The notes under the pieces are model-generated. The model saw only the letters and a program-made list of their open reading frames with translations. It had not been told where the DNA came from and ran no database searches. From contig JAAYWP010000102.1 of assembly GCA_012516535.1 (NCBI GenBank), forward strand, positions 1 through 38,537: DNA of 38,537 bases, given 5' to 3'. Below are positions 6,570 to 15,169 of this stretch, piece by piece. The position numbers and the translations under genes were made by a program. The DNA is from Syntrophomonadaceae bacterium. Its GTDB lineage: Bacteria; Bacillota; DSM-12270; Thermacetogeniales; Thermacetogeniaceae. Each line of letters starts with the position of its first letter. The stretch's first letter is position 1.

Positions 6570-7748
6570 TTGCTGGCACTTACCAATGGGAAAATATTAA
6601 CCATGGCGGGACAAATTTTTGAAAAGGGCACTGTTGTGGTGGAACAACAAAAGATATCTGCCCTCTATCAGGAGCCGGTTCCAGTTGATGGAGCCCGGGT
6701 CATCGATGTGTCCGGAAAATATGTTTTACCGGGATTTATCGATGCCCATACCCATATTGGCATCTATGAGGAAATATACGCTGAGGGGGATGACACCAAC
6801 GAAATATCAGAGCCGGTAACCCCCCACCTGCGTGCCATAGATGCGGTTAATATGGAGGATTTGGCATTTACCGATGCCCTACAGGGCGGTGTGACCACTG
6901 TGATGACCGGGCCGGGAAGCGCCAATGTGATCGGCGGATCAAGTGTAGTACTGAAAACCTCAGCCAAAACTGTTGATCAGGCTGTCATGAAAAATCCGGC
7001 AGGCCTCAAAGCAGCTTTTGGTGAAAACCCAAAACGGGTTTATGGAACTAAAAAAAAGATGCCTGCCACCCGTATGGCAACAGCTGCATTGCTGCGTGAA
7101 ACACTGGTCGCTGCTAATAACTATGCAGATAAAATCAGAATGGGCAAAATGGATCCTGATAAACTCCCGGACCGTGATCTGAAAATGGAAGCAATGCTCC
7201 CGGTTATTAACCGTGAGATCCCATTACTGATACACGCTCACCGGGCTGATGACATCCTCACAGGGCTAAGAATAGCTGATGAATTTAATTTAAAGGTTAT
7301 TTTACAGCATGCTACTGAAGCACATAAAATAGCCGAAGAACTTAAAAAAAGAAATATACCGGCTGTTGTTGGCCCCACATTGGTCTCCAGGGCCAAGGTG
7401 GAGCTGAAGGACAGCAGCCTCAAAACAGCAGGTATTTTAGCAAAAGCCGGCATCAAAGTAGCCATCATCACTGACCACCCCATTGTTCCCATTCAATACC
7501 TTCCTCTGCTGGCAGCACTGGCAGTAAAAGGTGGAATGGATGAGGATGATGCACTCAAGGCTATTACCATCAACCCCGCCCAGATTTTAGGTATAGCAGA
7601 CCGGGTAGGAAGCCTTGAACCGGGAAAAGATGCAGATATCATAATTCTCAGCGGCCACCCCTTTGACTGGCGCAGCAGGGTGGAGTTGGTTTTGGTGAAC
7701 GGAGAGATCGTTTACAGCAGTGGGGATTTGGGGGAAGGAGTCCTTTGA
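6570..7748 (+). CDS. Amidohydrolase, imidazolonepropionase-like
   Basis: A 392-residue metal-dependent amidohydrolase. The first metal motif is DAHTHIG (His60, His62); further ligand candidates are LLIHAHRADD near 219, ILQHATEAH near 241 and IITDHP near 306, followed by the C-terminal beta-sandwich segment LGIADRVGSLEPGKDADIII. This is the 'imidazolonepropionase and related amidohydrolases' group; the substrate is not known and many members act on cyclic amides or deaminate heterocycles. The start is TTG at 6570 with AGGAGG 8 nt upstream. It ends 1 bp before the fdhD start, so the two are co-translated. A link with the ureide genes 11 kb away is possible but not shown. Confidence 0.8.
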   Translation: MLALTNGKILTMAGQIFEKGTVVVEQQKISALYQEPVPVDGARVIDVSGKYVLPGFIDAHTHIGIYEEIYAEGDDTNEISEPVTPHLRAIDAVNMEDLAFTDALQGGVTTVMTGPGSANVIGGSSVVLKTSAKTVDQAVMKNPAGLKAAFGENPKRVYGTKKKMPATRMATAALLRETLVAANNYADKIRMGKMDPDKLPDRDLKMEAMLPVINREIPLLIHAHRADDILTGLRIADEFNLKVILQHATEAHKIAEELKKRNIPAVVGPTLVSRAKVELKDSSLKTAGILAKAGIKVAIITDHPIVPIQYLPLLAALAVKGGMDEDDALKAITINPAQILGIADRVGSLEPGKDADIIILSGHPFDWRSRVELVLVNGEIVYSSGDLGEGVL

Positions 7749-9432: not shown

Positions 9433-10371
9433 ATGGGCAAGAAGGTATTTGAGCAGATGGTTAATGATGCAGTTTCCTCGGGGAACTTCATACAGAAACT
9501 TTTGCCCTTTGTAAAAGAACATTGCAAAGAAAAACTGCCTGTCATCTGGATAGAAACAAATGACAGCGGTGACAACAATATTTCTTTCATGAATTCAACC
9601 TTCCCCTACCTAGGGCAGATATTTGATAATTTAATCGACCTTCTCTACAGCAACACAATGATGGCTGCCCAAGGAAAGGATGCTGTATTTTTGTTGGAAC
9701 AGGCAGTAAAAAAATATGCTGGTCATTATACCCTTGTGGTGGAAGGGGCCATACCTGTCCGTGACAATGGCCTCTATAACATAATCTACAAAACAAAGCA
9801 AGGCAATGTCACAGCACTGGAAGCAGTAACAGAACTGGGTAAGACAGCAAAATATGTTATAGCAGCAGGTACCTGTGCCAGTTTTGGCGGACCTTCTGCT
9901 GCTCGTCCAAACATCACCGGCAGTATGAGTGTTCAAGCGGTTTTGCCCCGGGAAGTAATCAGGGTTAGCGGATGCCCTGTCAATCCCGACTGGTTGGTAG
10001 GAACCCTGGCTCACCTTCTTTTATATGGTAGGCCGGAACTGGATGATCAGGGGCGACCTGTGCTTTTTTACGGCTTTACAATACACAGGCACTGCCAGCG
10101 GCGGTCTTACTTTGACACGGGAGATCTGGCTGATAGCCTGGGAGACATCAGATGTATGTTTTCACAAGGCTGCATGGGACCGAGAACCTTTGCTGACTGT
10201 CCATACAGGCAGTGGATCGACCATATAAACTGGCCTGTCAAAGCCAGTACCCCCTGTATCGGCTGCACCAATCGTGATTTTCCTGATGGCTCTACTCCCT
10301 TTTTCACTCCGATGCCGCAAAAAGGCGCAAATGAACTGGGACCACAAACAGGAGGTAAAAATAATGAATAA
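9433..10371 (+). CDS. NiFe-hydrogenase-like small subunit without proximal CxxC
   Basis: A 312-residue homologue of the electron-transfer small subunit of group 1-like NiFe hydrogenases. Distal and medial cluster ligands are present: His218-x2-Cys221, Cys241, Cys247, Cys256, Cys275 and Cys278, and two proximal-type cysteines, Cys148 (AAGTCASFGG) and Cys181 (VSGCPVNPDW). The first proximal pair, normally DCTGC after the VIW strand, is replaced by NDSGDNN (residues 43-49), so both signature Cys are missing while the flanking VIW...STFP...MMAAQG context is conserved. There is no Tat signal peptide, so the protein is predicted to be cytoplasmic. The ATG at 9433 has GGAGG 8 nt upstream. It overlaps the large-subunit start by 8 bp. 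The missing ligands make normal hydrogen turnover doubtful. Confidence 0.88.
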   Translation: MGKKVFEQMVNDAVSSGNFIQKLLPFVKEHCKEKLPVIWIETNDSGDNNISFMNSTFPYLGQIFDNLIDLLYSNTMMAAQGKDAVFLLEQAVKKYAGHYTLVVEGAIPVRDNGLYNIIYKTKQGNVTALEAVTELGKTAKYVIAAGTCASFGGPSAARPNITGSMSVQAVLPREVIRVSGCPVNPDWLVGTLAHLLLYGRPELDDQGRPVLFYGFTIHRHCQRRSYFDTGDLADSLGDIRCMFSQGCMGPRTFADCPYRQWIDHINWPVKASTPCIGCTNRDFPDGSTPFFTPMPQKGANELGPQTGGKNNE

Positions 10372-11734
10372 AAAGCGCTTTATTTTCAGCCCTGTAACAC
10401 GTTTAAGCGGCCTTTTATCTGTAGATGTTTTTCTGGAAGAAGGTGTGGTAAGGGAAGCTAAAGCCAGTTCAACTTTTTTTCGCGGTTTTGAATGGATCAT
10501 GAAAGGCAGGCAGATTACAGATGCCGTTTACTTGACACAGCGCATCTGCGGCATCTGTTCGCTGGCACATGGGGCAGTATCCAGCTACCTTGTTGACAAA
10601 ATCTATGACAATGAAATCAGCGAAAACGCCCAATACCTGCGCAATATTATGTTCGCTGCCGATTTTTTACAGAATCACATCAGACACTTTTATATATTCA
10701 GTATTCCGGACTACGTGAGAATGCCTAGCCATCCTCCTTTTCACGGGCAGAATAAAGCAGACTTAAGACTGGATGAAAAACAAAACAGGTCCATCGCAGA
10801 AAACTACTTTGAGGCTGCAAAAGCATCCCAGAGATGCCACGAAATACTGGCGCTTTTCGGAGGAAAAGCACCCCATCAGCACAGTTTTCTCTTTGGGGGT
10901 GTCACTGCTGCGCCTACTGCTGACAAGATCAATAGAGCCCTGGCACTGCTCTCATCAATAAAGGAGTTTATCCACAGCCGAATGCTGCCTGATACTGAAA
11001 TTATTGCCCATACTTACAATGATTACTTTACCATCGGGAAAACCCCACCCCGCCTCCTTTCCTTTGGGCTGTTCCGCTTCGGGCCAAAAAATGAGAGAGT
11101 GCTATGGGAGAGCGGAGTTTTAGTTAATGGCCGGATCAAACCCCTACAGCCGGAACTGATCAGTGAAGAGGTAACCAGCAGTTGGTTTAAACAGGTCGAA
11201 ACAGGTGAACCAATACCCGATCCCAGAAAACCGGGAGGCTACACCTGGGTGAAAACAGCTAAATATGATGGAGAGTTCTTTGAGGTAGGGCCCCTGGCCA
11301 GGATGCTGATCAATGGCAAATATCATGGATCAACAAGCACCATGGATCGCATTACCGCCCGCTCCCTGGAGACCGCTTTGATCGCTGATCTGATGGAAGA
11401 ATGGCTGTTAAGGCTGAAACCAGGACCACCACCATTCAACCATAAAAAAACACCGGTTAGAAACAGTGCTGTATCTATTACCGATGCCATGCGGGGAGCA
11501 CTTCTTCACAAAGTGATACTAGCAGGGGAACAAATTAGTAAATACGATGTTATAACACCAACAGCATGGAACTTTTCACCAAAAGATCAGCTAGGAAAAC
11601 ATGGCCCTGTGGAGAACGCACTGATCAACACAGAAATACCGCCTCATGTCCCTGCAGAGACCGTATTGGGGCGCATCATCAGGTCCTTTGACCCCTGCCT
11701 TTCCTGTGCCACCCATGTAGTGACTGTTACCTAG
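10364..11734 (+). CDS. NiFe-hydrogenase-like large subunit
   Basis: A 456-residue NiFe hydrogenase large-subunit homologue. The L1 motif RICGICSLAH (Cys62, Cys65) and L2 motif DPCLSCATH (Cys445, Cys448, His451) are both complete, so the four Ni-Fe ligands are retained. After the L2 histidine only five residues remain (VVTVT), far shorter than the usual C-terminal peptide of roughly 15 or more residues that the maturation protease removes; hydrogen sensors of the HupV type also lack a long tail. The ATG at 10364 is chosen because GGAGG lies 8 nt upstream and the start overlaps the small-subunit stop; the frame upstream of it lies within the small subunit. No hydrogenase maturation protease or hyp gene is in the window. 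Confidence 0.9.
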   Translation: MNKKRFIFSPVTRLSGLLSVDVFLEEGVVREAKASSTFFRGFEWIMKGRQITDAVYLTQRICGICSLAHGAVSSYLVDKIYDNEISENAQYLRNIMFAADFLQNHIRHFYIFSIPDYVRMPSHPPFHGQNKADLRLDEKQNRSIAENYFEAAKASQRCHEILALFGGKAPHQHSFLFGGVTAAPTADKINRALALLSSIKEFIHSRMLPDTEIIAHTYNDYFTIGKTPPRLLSFGLFRFGPKNERVLWESGVLVNGRIKPLQPELISEEVTSSWFKQVETGEPIPDPRKPGGYTWVKTAKYDGEFFEVGPLARMLINGKYHGSTSTMDRITARSLETALIADLMEEWLLRLKPGPPPFNHKKTPVRNSAVSITDAMRGALLHKVILAGEQISKYDVITPTAWNFSPKDQLGKHGPVENALINTEIPPHVPAETVLGRIIRSFDPCLSCATHVVTVT

Positions 11735-11805: not shown

Positions 11806-12060
11806 ATGCGGGAGATCAGTATCGATCTGGGGCCAACAATCGGCACCGGGGATATAGAAATCATCAAAGCAGCAACATCAAAAATGGAGCCTGGGGATCA
11901 CCTGCTGCTGAATTTAGAAGCGGCAGATGCCCATGAAACAGATAGAATTTTAGCCCTGCTGGAAAATGAAAACATGGACTACCAAACTCATGGCAGCCAT
12001 AGCGGACAAAGGTTTATAATTATTGCTACACCTCGAGGCAACACAAAAAAGCCCCACTAA
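11806..12060 (+). CDS. Small TusA-like fold protein without the CPxP motif
   Basis: An 84-residue protein starting at ATG 11806 with GAAAGGGG 6 nt upstream, 71 bp after the hydrogenase large subunit on the same strand. Its pattern, a short strand (ISIDLG), a helix (DIEIIKAATSKM), the turn MEPGDHLLLNLEA, a second helix (DRILALLENENMDYQ) and a final strand (QRFIIIATP), matches the TusA/SirA/YedF sulfur-carrier family. The functional CPxP motif expected at the first helix reads TIGTGDIEI, with no cysteine anywhere in the protein. The TusA relationship is my pattern judgement and needs a profile search. It is probably the third gene of the hydrogenase-like operon and may be a binding or assembly partner. 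Confidence 0.6.
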   Translation: MREISIDLGPTIGTGDIEIIKAATSKMEPGDHLLLNLEAADAHETDRILALLENENMDYQTHGSHSGQRFIIIATPRGNTKKPH

Positions 12061-12075
12061 AAACACTATTGTTAT
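12060..12075 (+). repeat. Right copy of the 16-bp direct repeat
   Basis: Exact second copy of AAAACACTATTGTTAT. It begins at the last base of the TusA-like stop codon and runs into the stop codon of znuB on the other strand, so it lies exactly at the boundary of the hydrogenase-like unit. Confidence 0.8.
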
Positions 12076-12914
12076 CCATTTTTAACAACCCAGCGCTTTT
12101 TGAAAAGGGTGAACAGTTGTTTGATCCCATAACTCACAATAAAAAAGGCGAGTGCAACCAGTACAACACAGCCTCCAGCAGCCAAACCGAACTGGTATGA
12201 AGCAGTTAGTCCTAACAAACTGGACAGCACTCCCAGAGCAAGGGATAGATAAACCACCTGACGGAAACTACGCCCCACAATTAGGGAAGTCAACACCGGG
12301 ATCACCATTAAAGCCCCAACCAGCAGGGTGCCTACTACTCTGAGACTGACAGCAACGGTCATAGCTACTAATAATATAAAGATGCGGTTGAGCAAATCAA
12401 CAGGCAACCCTGACACCCGGGCGGCTTCTTCATCTGAACAAATAAAGTACATCTCCTTTGCCATGAAAATCAAAAATAAGAGCACAATTGTCCCTACAAT
12501 TAATATCAACCAGAGATCAGCAGCACTGACGGTCATCAAACTACCGAAAAGATAAGAGGTGATATCCAAAGCTCCCCCTCTAGACAATCCAAAGAAAACA
12601 ACAGCTAGGGCAAGCCCAGCACTCATCACCAGAGCCAGCAGTGCATCAGCTGAAAGCCGGGAGCGCACTCTTAGGTAATCCGCTATCAATGCCCCAACAG
12701 TAGCTACCCCCAGGGTAAATAAAAGTGAAAATTCAGCAGCAACCCCGATCAAAAGCCCAAAGGCAACCCCAGCCAGAGAAATGTGAGCAAGGGTATCAGC
12801 CATAAATGAATAGCGGCGCAGCACCAGAAAAACGCCTAAAGCAGGGCAGATCAGCCCTGTTATAAGACCTGCGAACAGAGCACGAATCATAAAATCATAG
12901 TGCAGCATATCCAT
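12072..12914 (-). CDS. znuB: Zinc ABC transporter permease ZnuB
   Basis: A 280-residue integral membrane protein of the ABC-3 (ZnuB/MntB) family with about eight hydrophobic segments; recognisable parts are ALFAGLITGLICPALGVFLV, the helix pair with DTLAHISLAGVAFGLL, and VGTLLVGALMVIPVLTSL. It forms the membrane channel of a metal importer with ZnuC and ZnuA. The ATG at 12914 is favoured by AAGGAG upstream; a TTG directly before it is a possible alternative start. It is the last gene of the zur-znuA-znuC-znuB operon, 51 bp after znuC, and converges with the TusA-like gene. The zinc assignment comes from the linked Fur-family gene, and manganese cannot be excluded by sequence alone. Confidence 0.9.
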   Translation of the reverse strand: MDMLHYDFMIRALFAGLITGLICPALGVFLVLRRYSFMADTLAHISLAGVAFGLLIGVAAEFSLLFTLGVATVGALIADYLRVRSRLSADALLALVMSAGLALAVVFFGLSRGGALDITSYLFGSLMTVSAADLWLILIVGTIVLLFLIFMAKEMYFICSDEEAARVSGLPVDLLNRIFILLVAMTVAVSLRVVGTLLVGALMVIPVLTSLIVGRSFRQVVYLSLALGVLSSLLGLTASYQFGLAAGGCVVLVALAFFIVSYGIKQLFTLFKKRWVVKNG

Positions 12915-12965
12915 CAACAGTTGTTCTCCTTTTTCTAAATGTGACAAGGTCAGGATGCCCTGCAG

Positions 12966-13697
12966 TTAATTGGCAGCATAAAGGTTCATTCCATAAACAT
13001 CTTTGAGTTTAGCTGGATTCAATACCTCCCGCGGTGTCCCTTGGTAGAGCACTTTTTTGTTGAGGCAGATAATCCTGTCAGCCCAGGAACCTATCTCACC
13101 GATATCATGGGAAACAATAAAAATAGTGATAGCCCGCTCTTTTTTGAGCTGCTTCAGCAAACAATAAAAATCGTAAAGATAACGGTCATCGAGCCCTACC
13201 TGAGGCTCATCCAAAATTAATATATCAGGATGGCCAGCCAGTGCTCTGGCTATAAAGACACGCTGCTGCTGGCCTCCGGACAGCTCCAGGAGCGGCTTAT
13301 GCTGTAATGAAAGAAGCCCCACCATTTCCAAGGCTTCTTCAACCGCCTCCCAATCTTCCCTTTTCAGCTTCCGGCAGAGTCCAATCCTGCCGAAACGCCC
13401 AGCAGCCGCAGCCTCTCTAACAGTCACCGGGAAGCCATTATTAAGAACTGCCCGCTGGGGAACATATCCCAACCTATGCCAATCTTTGAACTGCTTCAAA
13501 GGAGTTCCGAAAACCAGCACTTTCCCACAAACAGGCTCCATAAGCCCTAGGATCAGCTTCACCAAAGTTGTTTTCCCTGAGCCATTGGGGCCGATCAACG
13601 CCAGGTACTCCCCTTTTTCTACTGCTAAATTAATATCTTCTAAAATAACTCTATCACTGTAGGAGAAATAGATGTTCTGAAGCTCGATCACTTTCAT
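12966..13697 (-). CDS. znuC: Zinc ABC transporter ATP-binding protein ZnuC
   Basis: A 243-residue ABC ATPase: Walker A GPNGSGKTT at 36-44, signature LSGGQQQR near 139, Walker B ILILDEP with the D-loop reading QVGLDD instead of the commoner TVGLD, and switch His in IVSHD. It energises uptake through ZnuB. Start ATG at 13697 with AAGGAA 8 nt upstream. It lies between znuA and znuB with short gaps, in the standard operon order. Confidence 0.93.
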   Translation of the reverse strand: MKVIELQNIYFSYSDRVILEDINLAVEKGEYLALIGPNGSGKTTLVKLILGLMEPVCGKVLVFGTPLKQFKDWHRLGYVPQRAVLNNGFPVTVREAAAAGRFGRIGLCRKLKREDWEAVEEALEMVGLLSLQHKPLLELSGGQQQRVFIARALAGHPDILILDEPQVGLDDRYLYDFYCLLKQLKKERAITIFIVSHDIGEIGSWADRIICLNKKVLYQGTPREVLNPAKLKDVYGMNLYAAN

Positions 13698-13714
13698 TTT
13701 CTCAGGTTCCTTCC

Positions 13715-14710
13715 TTATTCAGCTAGCGCTTTTTTCAAATTCTCAAGATTCTGGCGCATCAAATCAAAATAATCAAAGCCTTTATTGATATCCTTCTCTG
13801 TCAAAGCCCCGATGGGATGGAGTACCAGTGTTTCTACTCCGATTTCCTGGGCGATGGTCTCAGCAATCCGTGGGCTGCTAGTGGCTTCATAGAATATATA
13901 CTTAATATTGTGTTGACGAGAAAAATCAATTATTCGTGCCAGAGTTGCGGCATCAGGTTCCTGCTCCGGGGTTATACCCAGAACTGGTATTTGGCAGAGA
14001 CCATAACGGTTTGCCAAGTAGCCAAAAGCAGCATGGGAAACCACAATATCTCTGTTCGGAAACTGAGCAACTGCTGTTGTGTATTCCTTGTCCAGCTGAT
14101 CTAGCGTATCAAACAGCAACTGGGCATTATGCAAGTAATAGCTAGCGTTCTCCCTATCAACCGCCGCAATTTCTTCTGCCATGAAAGATACCATATCTTT
14201 GGCCAGCACAGGGTCCAGCCAGACATGTGGATCAAATACTCCTTCAAGTTCCCCTTCTTGCAAACCCTCAGATCTATTTGCTCGCAGAAAGTTCGTGATT
14301 CCAACTTTTTCTTCTTCTGCAAAGGTGAGAAGAGGAAGCCCTTCTGTAGCCTTAATTACTTTTACTTCTCGGTCTTTCAATTCTGGGAGAATTTTATTAG
14401 CCCATAACTCCATTCCCGCACCATGGTAAATAAAAAGGTCAGCCTCATAAATTCGCTTCATATCTGAGGGTGCAGGTTCCCAGTGATGTGGTTCACTTCC
14501 AGGAGGTATGATTTGGGTGACTGTTGCCCGATCACCTACTATCCCCCGAGCGAATTCAGCCAGTGGATAGATTGTTACTGCAAGCTGCAGTTTTGATTCC
14601 CCATCTTCTGCAGTGGGCTCTGCCTGCTGACAGCCGCTGAGTAGAACCGCAATAAAAATGAACACCATCAAACAGCTACATATTTTCAGAGAATTCCTCC
14701 ACTTACCCAT
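13715..14710 (-). CDS. znuA: Zinc-binding lipoprotein ZnuA
   Basis: A 331-residue cluster A-I solute-binding lipoprotein. The N-terminal hydrophobic segment ends in the lipobox LLSGC, so Cys27 should be lipid-anchored outside the membrane. Metal-site candidates are His in SEPHHWEP, His in FDPHVWLDP, His in VSHAAFGYLA, and an acidic residue in the FYEATSSP region. The loop between the first two His is acidic and not His-rich, unlike many ZnuA. It delivers the metal to ZnuBC. It starts 21 bp after the regulator stop and shares its promoter. Confidence 0.93.
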   Translation of the reverse strand: MGKWRNSLKICSCLMVFIFIAVLLSGCQQAEPTAEDGESKLQLAVTIYPLAEFARGIVGDRATVTQIIPPGSEPHHWEPAPSDMKRIYEADLFIYHGAGMELWANKILPELKDREVKVIKATEGLPLLTFAEEEKVGITNFLRANRSEGLQEGELEGVFDPHVWLDPVLAKDMVSFMAEEIAAVDRENASYYLHNAQLLFDTLDQLDKEYTTAVAQFPNRDIVVSHAAFGYLANRYGLCQIPVLGITPEQEPDAATLARIIDFSRQHNIKYIFYEATSSPRIAETIAQEIGVETLVLHPIGALTEKDINKGFDYFDLMRQNLENLKKALAE

Positions 14711-14731
14711 ATCTCTGTTTGTCCTCCATAA

Positions 14732-15169
14732 TTAATCTTCCCGGCACTGAGCACAGTATCCATAGATGGTAAAACTATGATCCTCAATTTTAAAATCCGA
14801 GTAACACTCCTTTACCCGCTCTATAATATCTACAGGACAATATGCTATTTCTCTAACATAGCCGCATCCTAAGCAAACAAGATGGTGGTGATGTTCCCCC
14901 TGAATAACCAGTTCATAACGCCGTGATTGGTCTTTAAACTGCAGTTCGTTAACAATACCCTTTCTAGTAAAGGTAGCCAGGGTCCGGTATACTGTATCTA
15001 AACTGATACCAGGGTAACGGGATCTGACACATTTCATAACCTCTTCAGCATTGACAGGTTGGCCGCCTGCCTGTGCCCTCTCCCATAGAACCTGTAATAT
15101 TTCCTGGCGCTGTGGTGTCAGCCTCACACCCACCCTTTTAAGGTGTTCGATAAATTCCCCCGGTATCAT
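14732..15169 (-). CDS. zur: Fur-family regulator, probably zinc sensor Zur
   Basis: A 145-residue Fur-family repressor. The winged helix (RLTPQRQEILQVLWE...SLDTVYRTLATF) is followed by the dimerisation domain with the His cluster GEHHHHLVC and two CxxC pairs (CLGC, CAQC) that form the structural Zn site. Its position as first gene of the znu operon makes zinc the likely effector. An AAATTGA-ATG-TCAATTT palindrome covers its own -35 element, suggesting autorepression of the whole operon when metal is sufficient. The ATG at 15169 follows GGAGGAATACC. Fur, PerR or Mur specificity cannot be excluded from sequence alone. Confidence 0.88.
   Translation of the reverse strand: MIPGEFIEHLKRVGVRLTPQRQEILQVLWERAQAGGQPVNAEEVMKCVRSRYPGISLDTVYRTLATFTRKGIVNELQFKDQSRRYELVIQGEHHHHLVCLGCGYVREIAYCPVDIIERVKECYSDFKIEDHSFTIYGYCAQCRED

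Follow-up and report, generated by a model that had tools for sequence, protein, structure and literature searches.

The closest solved relatives of the gene pair described here, by both sequence and fold, are the group-1 [NiFeSe] and [NiFe] hydrogenases (Desulfomicrobium baculatum 4KL8/1CC1, D. vulgaris HysAB). These carry four proximal cysteines, a glutamate proton gate and a signal for periplasmic export. A 3Cys1Asp proximal cluster is known in the actinobacterial-type AH enzyme (HofK, 5AA5). The glutamate is presented as an essential proton gate in those passages of PMC11212049 that cite Dementin 2004. Single natural replacements of a proximal Cys have been described, by Asp in M. barkeri and G. 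metalloreducens and by Asn in N. punctiforme and in cyanobacterial HupS; serinyl ligation is said there to have no known natural example (PMC4070099). In the NiFe enzyme tested in the same study, Asp was the best-tolerated replacement of a ligating Cys and gave active variants; multiply substituted distal/medial ligand variants had no detectable activity. Huc contains three [3Fe-4S] clusters, and a large-subunit histidine is reported to contact the proximal cluster (PMC10017518). The H2 sensor RH (HoxBC/HupUV, group 2b) keeps four proximal cysteines (PMC5665086) and has bulky gas-channel residues (PMC10369191).

The window, that is the whole stretch of DNA analysed, comprises 38,537 nucleotides of a Syntrophomonadaceae bacterium; the draft genome to which it belongs, as contig C64, has 1.84 Mb and is 82% complete. 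It encodes the small subunit (312 AA; 9433..10371, +) and the large subunit (456 AA; 10364..11734, +) of a NiFe hydrogenase-like heterodimer. The coding regions share a few bases, and each ATG has a GGAGG upstream of it. The large subunit starts at the ATG at 10364; the GTG start at 10274 of the open reading frame list gives a longer product. The small subunit was recognised by its Pfam domains (NiFe_hyd_SSU_C and Oxidored_q6), by NCBIfam TIGR00391 above cut-off and by homologue alignment. Both subunits by sequence, and the small one also by fold (E 2e-21 to group-1 NiFeSe/NiFe structures), belong to the group-1 [NiFe] hydrogenases (TIGR00391 / PF14720 + PF00374). AH- and Huc-type structures are remote (small subunit of 5AA5, E 1e-23; 7UTD, 3e-22).

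Only two of the four proximal cysteines required in group 1 are present in this small subunit. At the site of the canonical CxGC it reads VIWIETNDSGDNNISF; the corresponding stretch of L002, the canonical paralogue in this genome, is VIWLQGASCTGCSISL. As the earlier note had claimed, the codons at 9559..9579 (+) specify N-D-S-G-D-N-N (residues 43-49) instead of a DCTGC-type motif, a reading borne out by 47 homologues. When NiFeSe and NiFe structures are aligned gap-free with this subunit, their two CxxC cysteines face Ser45 and Asn48. The same note was also right that the remaining ligands are kept. The other two proximal ligands, Cys148 (GTCAS; 9874..9876, +) and Cys181 (SGCPVNP; 9973..9975, +), are each conserved in 46/46 aligned homologues. 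The distal ligands His218, Cys221, Cys241 and Cys247 (10084..10173, +) are accompanied by an additional, clade-specific His220. The medial ligands, assigned by homology, are Cys256, Cys275 and Cys278 (10198..10266, +), with Pro at the fourth position (3Fe-4S type). An AlphaFold model, metal-free and confident in its N-terminal part only (mean pLDDT 71.8), was set aside for ligand geometry on account of its poor C-terminal part.

From 84,980 species genomes scanned, 53 loci were obtained; a further genome search extended this set. The motif SGD[ND]N occurs in all homologues above about 60% identity, and in 47 of 47 non-duplicate homologues across Bacillota (Thermacetogeniales-type, Desulfotomaculum/Pelotomaculum and Sporomusaceae). 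It marks a single clade (SH-aLRT 100), so that the lone case among CxxC-bearing relatives envisaged earlier does not apply, and the alteration of the first electron relay is common to all 47. Members come from Syntrophaceticus/Thermacetogenium, Pelotomaculum, Desulfotomaculum, Desulfoscipio, Desulfotruncus, Sporomusa, Pelosinus and relatives of Fermentithermobacillaceae. About ten of 399 evenly sampled genomes of the phylum carry one (identity of at least 64%). Among the 47 members, Ser45, Gly46, Asp47, Asn49 and Ile50 are invariant; Asn48 is replaced once by Asp, and Asp44 once by Gly (L010, GSGDD) and once by Cys (L026, still CSGD). The motif codons differ synonymously between members, and dN/dS is 0.07-0.18 in eight clade pairs, indicating that these genes are under purifying selection. 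The non-ligand Cys31 drifts and is Cys in only two members. The N-terminal Cys10 was considered as a substitute ligand and discarded: it is Cys in 42/46 members but Val in the window, hence not essential, and is better seen as a remnant of a Tat signal.

The clade large subunit of Syntrophaceticus schinkii Sp3 (L108:6068-7418) shows a frame change near 7024, due to an assembly error or a pseudogene. A 'cytoplasmic NiFe hydrogenase' reported in S. schinkii (SSCH_370002-6; PMC5113046) was considered as the clade gene but not adopted: FTHFS, placed at SSCH_370012 in that report, and a response regulator are missing from the contig that carries the clade gene. No account of the SGDN clade was found in the open-licence papers searched, nor any report in that literature of a lineage without two proximal cysteines, or additionally without the Glu gate.

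The phylogeny was built from the concatenated subunits of 130 loci, leaving out the motif columns and the RxEGH columns, and included no RH sequence. It groups 98 rows (SH-aLRT 100) whose small subunits carry CxGD, CxGN (one CxGE) or SGDN. Within it, a single clade (SH-aLRT 100) unites the 42 SGDN rows and adjoins the CSGD sequences L061, L091, L092 and L124. Since the SGDN clade nests within this Bacillota CxG[DN] group beside CSGD sequences, the proximal cysteines appear to have been lost stepwise, Cys20 (the fourth ligand) first and Cys17 (the first ligand) later. The nearest sisters read NACSGDS, which indicates that the Asp beside the lost Cys predates the clade. L026 and L061 suggest a different history, in which [D/C]SGD would be the old CSGD moved by one residue; however, both hhalign and MAFFT favour the ungapped alignment. 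Two other arrangements were seen elsewhere. A separate CDGN small subunit whose partner keeps RIEGH (L145) is placed among canonical rows outside the main group, and three Nitrospinota small subunits (L051, L052, L053) carry SDTGC, in which the first proximal Cys is replaced by Asp and the second kept, the reverse of the CxGD type.

The large subunit of the window retains RICGIC and DPCLSC with the four NiFe cysteines (C62, C65, C445, C448), as well as Arg377, and ends in DPCLSCATH followed by VVTVT. RxCxxC and DPCxxC are conserved in all clade members that have the region (41-43). The active site, held to be intact in the earlier note, is so in its metal-binding cysteines, but not in its surroundings. 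Ser15 of RLSGL (10406..10408, +) occupies the position of the proton-gate Glu of RIEGH (Glu25 in D. fructosovorans numbering; this and the two following equivalences use a constant offset of 10). Ile64 (CGIC; 10553..10555, +) and Phe112 (FYIF; 10697..10699, +) correspond to D. fructosovorans Val74 and Leu122, both of them gas-channel positions. The Glu position is Ser in 41, Ala in one and Glu in one of 43 clade members, while Ile64 (43/43) and Phe112 (42/42) do not vary. His171 of GGKAPHQH is joined by an extra His173 (10874..10882, +), and matches, as far as its position tells, the large-subunit His reported to contact the proximal cluster in the Huc study. Two CxGC small subunits (L133, L137) are paired with large subunits degenerate in the first NiFe motif (RTNGTDF, RTSGLDF), suggesting NiFe-free hydrogenase-like dimers.

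Several of these changes extend beyond the SGDN clade. The RxEGH Glu is present in 26 of 29 CxGC rows, but is replaced by Ser, Asn, His or another residue in nearly all of the CxG[DN] group, where L068 and L145 retain it. In some CxG[DN] rows a Glu stands at the neighbouring position (RIHEP, RENTP); the gate could have shifted in these, though not in the clade of the window. Only two independent pairs were available to an independent-pairs test of Cys20 loss against Glu loss, and co-occurrence is all that is claimed. His173 of PHxH is found in 45/45 clade members and 46/55 CxG[DN] rows but in only 2 CxGC rows; Arg107 and Asp/Glu100 of the large subunit are similarly distributed, having been gained across the whole CxG[DN] group. 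These three residues track the loss of the proximal Cys rather than that of the Glu, because L068 (CSGN) already has His173, Arg107 and Asp100 while keeping RVEGH. The CxG[DN] sisters (L061-L068, L091-L130, L046-L050) thus resemble the clade in their group-1-like character, mostly lost Glu and added residues. Unlike the clade, they keep the first proximal Cys, and many are Tat-exported.

Many clade members are flanked by hyp genes or a maturation protease gene, with hyp genes adjacent in about ten loci. In three genomes, G330 (one contig, 99% complete), G389 (99%) and G061 (98%), no PF00374 gene occurs besides the clade member, and hypA-F adjoin the latter; in G330 and G061 the operon consists of the two subunit genes and the full hyp set only. 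As no other client of the Hyp machinery is known in these three genomes, the clade protein very probably receives its NiFe cofactor. HypD and HypF are missing from G279, a draft genome 95% complete. The C-terminal extension of the large subunit amounts to 5 residues in the window and about 14 in most other members. It is absent from ten Sporomusaceae-type members (L014, L017, L024, L027, L029, L030, L033, L034, L035, L044). These stop at the last His of DPCxxCATH and have no protease gene beside them, so their maturation is probably protease-independent.

No Tat signal was recognised, RRxF being absent from the small subunit of the window. Its N-terminus, MGKKVF, resembles a decayed Tat signal, where the canonical paralogue has SRRDFLKLC. 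The best reading of these termini is a soluble, cytoplasmic protein. No sensor kinase or regulator is consistently adjacent to the clade genes in the neighbourhoods of their loci, and no electron-partner gene or neighbouring pathway is common to these loci. Four loci (L026:4482-4829, L046:5468-6001, L050:5324-5884, L064:965-1462) have a cytochrome b5-like gene immediately upstream of, or near, the small subunit gene, and its product is a possible electron partner. In the window, an 84-AA open reading frame without Pfam match (11806..12060, +) follows just downstream of the large subunit gene. It is conserved in near relatives only (L003, L004, L005, L008) and is possibly a third gene of the operon; our impression is that its pattern recalls a Cys-less TusA-like protein. 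Further on (12072-15169) lie a ZnuA-type metal uptake ABC transporter and a Fur-family regulator, which also adjoin the hydrogenase in L003, L005 and L008.

Compared with known systems, the clade nests among group-1-like Bacillota enzymes and its best PDB relatives are group-1 NiFeSe enzymes. It shares with group 1 the distal ligands, the four NiFe positions and the two-subunit core, but lacks the equivalents of Cys17, Cys20 and Glu25 as well as the Tat signal, and has an Ile/Phe gas channel. It resembles AH, HupS and Huc in having a natural and, in those enzymes, functional non-Cys residue at the fourth proximal position. However, these have lost one proximal Cys and the clade two, so that it falls outside the 3Cys1Asp type, whereas its CSGD sisters have three. 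Ile/Phe is also the gas-channel pair of RH (RH numbering). Further features in common with RH are the cytoplasmic location, the missing signal peptide and, in ten members, the missing C-terminal extension. RH differs in its four proximal cysteines and in its partner kinase; the clade, group-1-like, lacks a PAS histidine kinase or regulator consistently linked to its genes.

The reading that we prefer, with a probability of about 0.5, is that of a functional cytoplasmic NiFe dimer whose proximal cluster is non-canonical and Cys/Asp-ligated and whose H2 chemistry is slow or sensor-like. The gene pair would encode a soluble heterodimer, a late and formerly Tat-exported branch of the group-1-type hydrogenases, whose NiFe(CN)2CO site would be assembled by the standard Hyp machinery. 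The proximal Fe-S cluster would be held by Cys148, Cys181 and one or more carboxylates of the DSGD loop (the invariant Asp47, usually also Asp44), probably assisted by His171/His173 of the large subunit. It would likely be a [3Fe-4S] or a labile [4Fe-4S] cluster of shifted potential. With the Glu gate missing and the gas channel narrowed, the dimer would bind H2 and pass electrons slowly over the medial and distal clusters, which are intact; its role would be one of sensing or of redox poising. We infer the presence of the cofactor, the type of cluster, the slow turnover and the sensing role from sequence. Ligation by Asp is favoured because Cys148 and Cys181 would be expected to drift at an empty site, the closest relatives are CSGD (3Cys+Asp type) and Asp is the best-tolerated replacement. 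The oxygen-ligated cluster proposed earlier is therefore the most economical reading. Nevertheless, Asp44 is not absolute, and ungapped alignments place Ser and Asn, not Asp, at the Cys positions. The sensor role proposed at the same time fits the RH-like features but not the missing partner kinase. That three genomes have no other NiFe hydrogenase to regulate further weakens a classical RH role; [FeFe] hydrogenases, present in several clade genomes including these three, could be the regulated system there.

Several other explanations have to be weighed against a Cys/Asp-ligated, slow or sensing dimer. A true turnover hydrogenase, using another proton route (e.g. Asp100/Arg107), a Cys/Asp proximal cluster and a small cytoplasmic electron carrier, is conceivable though doubtful. 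The arrangement of G330 and G061, subunit genes plus hyp set only, resembles an enzyme operon. Asp/Glu100, Arg107 and His173 are shared by the whole CxG[DN] group, the cytochrome b5-like genes may supply a carrier, and Asp-ligated variants of another NiFe enzyme are active (PMC4070099). Yet characterised enzymes are described as unable to turn over once the gate Glu is lost, the gas channel is narrowed and the clade lacks a consistent electron-partner gene. It is unlikely that the proximal cluster is absent altogether and the NiFe site, cut off, acts by binding a ligand (H2, CO) or by structural change. Two of the four ligands have indeed gone, and serinyl ligation has no natural precedent in PMC4070099; however, with electron transfer shut down one would not expect Cys148, Cys181 and all medial and distal ligands to be conserved, as they are, without or almost without exception.

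Recruitment of the NiFe protein to chemistry other than that of H2 seems more improbable still. It would agree with the loss of the Glu gate and the unusual second-sphere changes throughout a Bacillota group, and with the [FeFe] hydrogenases of several of the same genomes, but sits poorly with the retention of the four NiFe cysteines, Arg377 and the hyp genes and with the lack of a pathway common to the neighbourhoods. As to a sequencing error, a chance mutation or a decaying pseudogene, the frame-broken S. schinkii large subunit would be an example; conservation in 47/47 homologues, the low dN/dS and intact genes in isolates and MAGs of many families leave this explanation next to no chance.

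The sequences thus describe a conserved, predicted cytoplasmic NiFe hydrogenase-like clade of many anaerobic bacteria, without two of the proximal cysteines and the usual gate Glu, a combined loss that would surprise specialists. NiFe hydrogenases are often said to depend on their proximal cluster and their Glu proton gate, a view that the clade challenges. Having lost two proximal cysteines and the Glu, yet being conserved together with maturation genes of its own, the lineage offers a natural experiment on what these enzymes need, and the series CxGC, CxG[DN], CSGD and DSGDNN provides ready-made intermediates. Models of H2 metabolism may go astray where such proteins of syntrophs, acetogens and sulfate reducers are automatically annotated as ordinary hydrogenases. 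We propose only tentatively, and at less than even odds, that this NiFe lineage combines a proximal cluster of two Cys and a carboxylate, perhaps with a large-subunit His, with H2 chemistry that dispenses with the Glu gate. If this is true, both the cluster type and the proton path would be new to the family.
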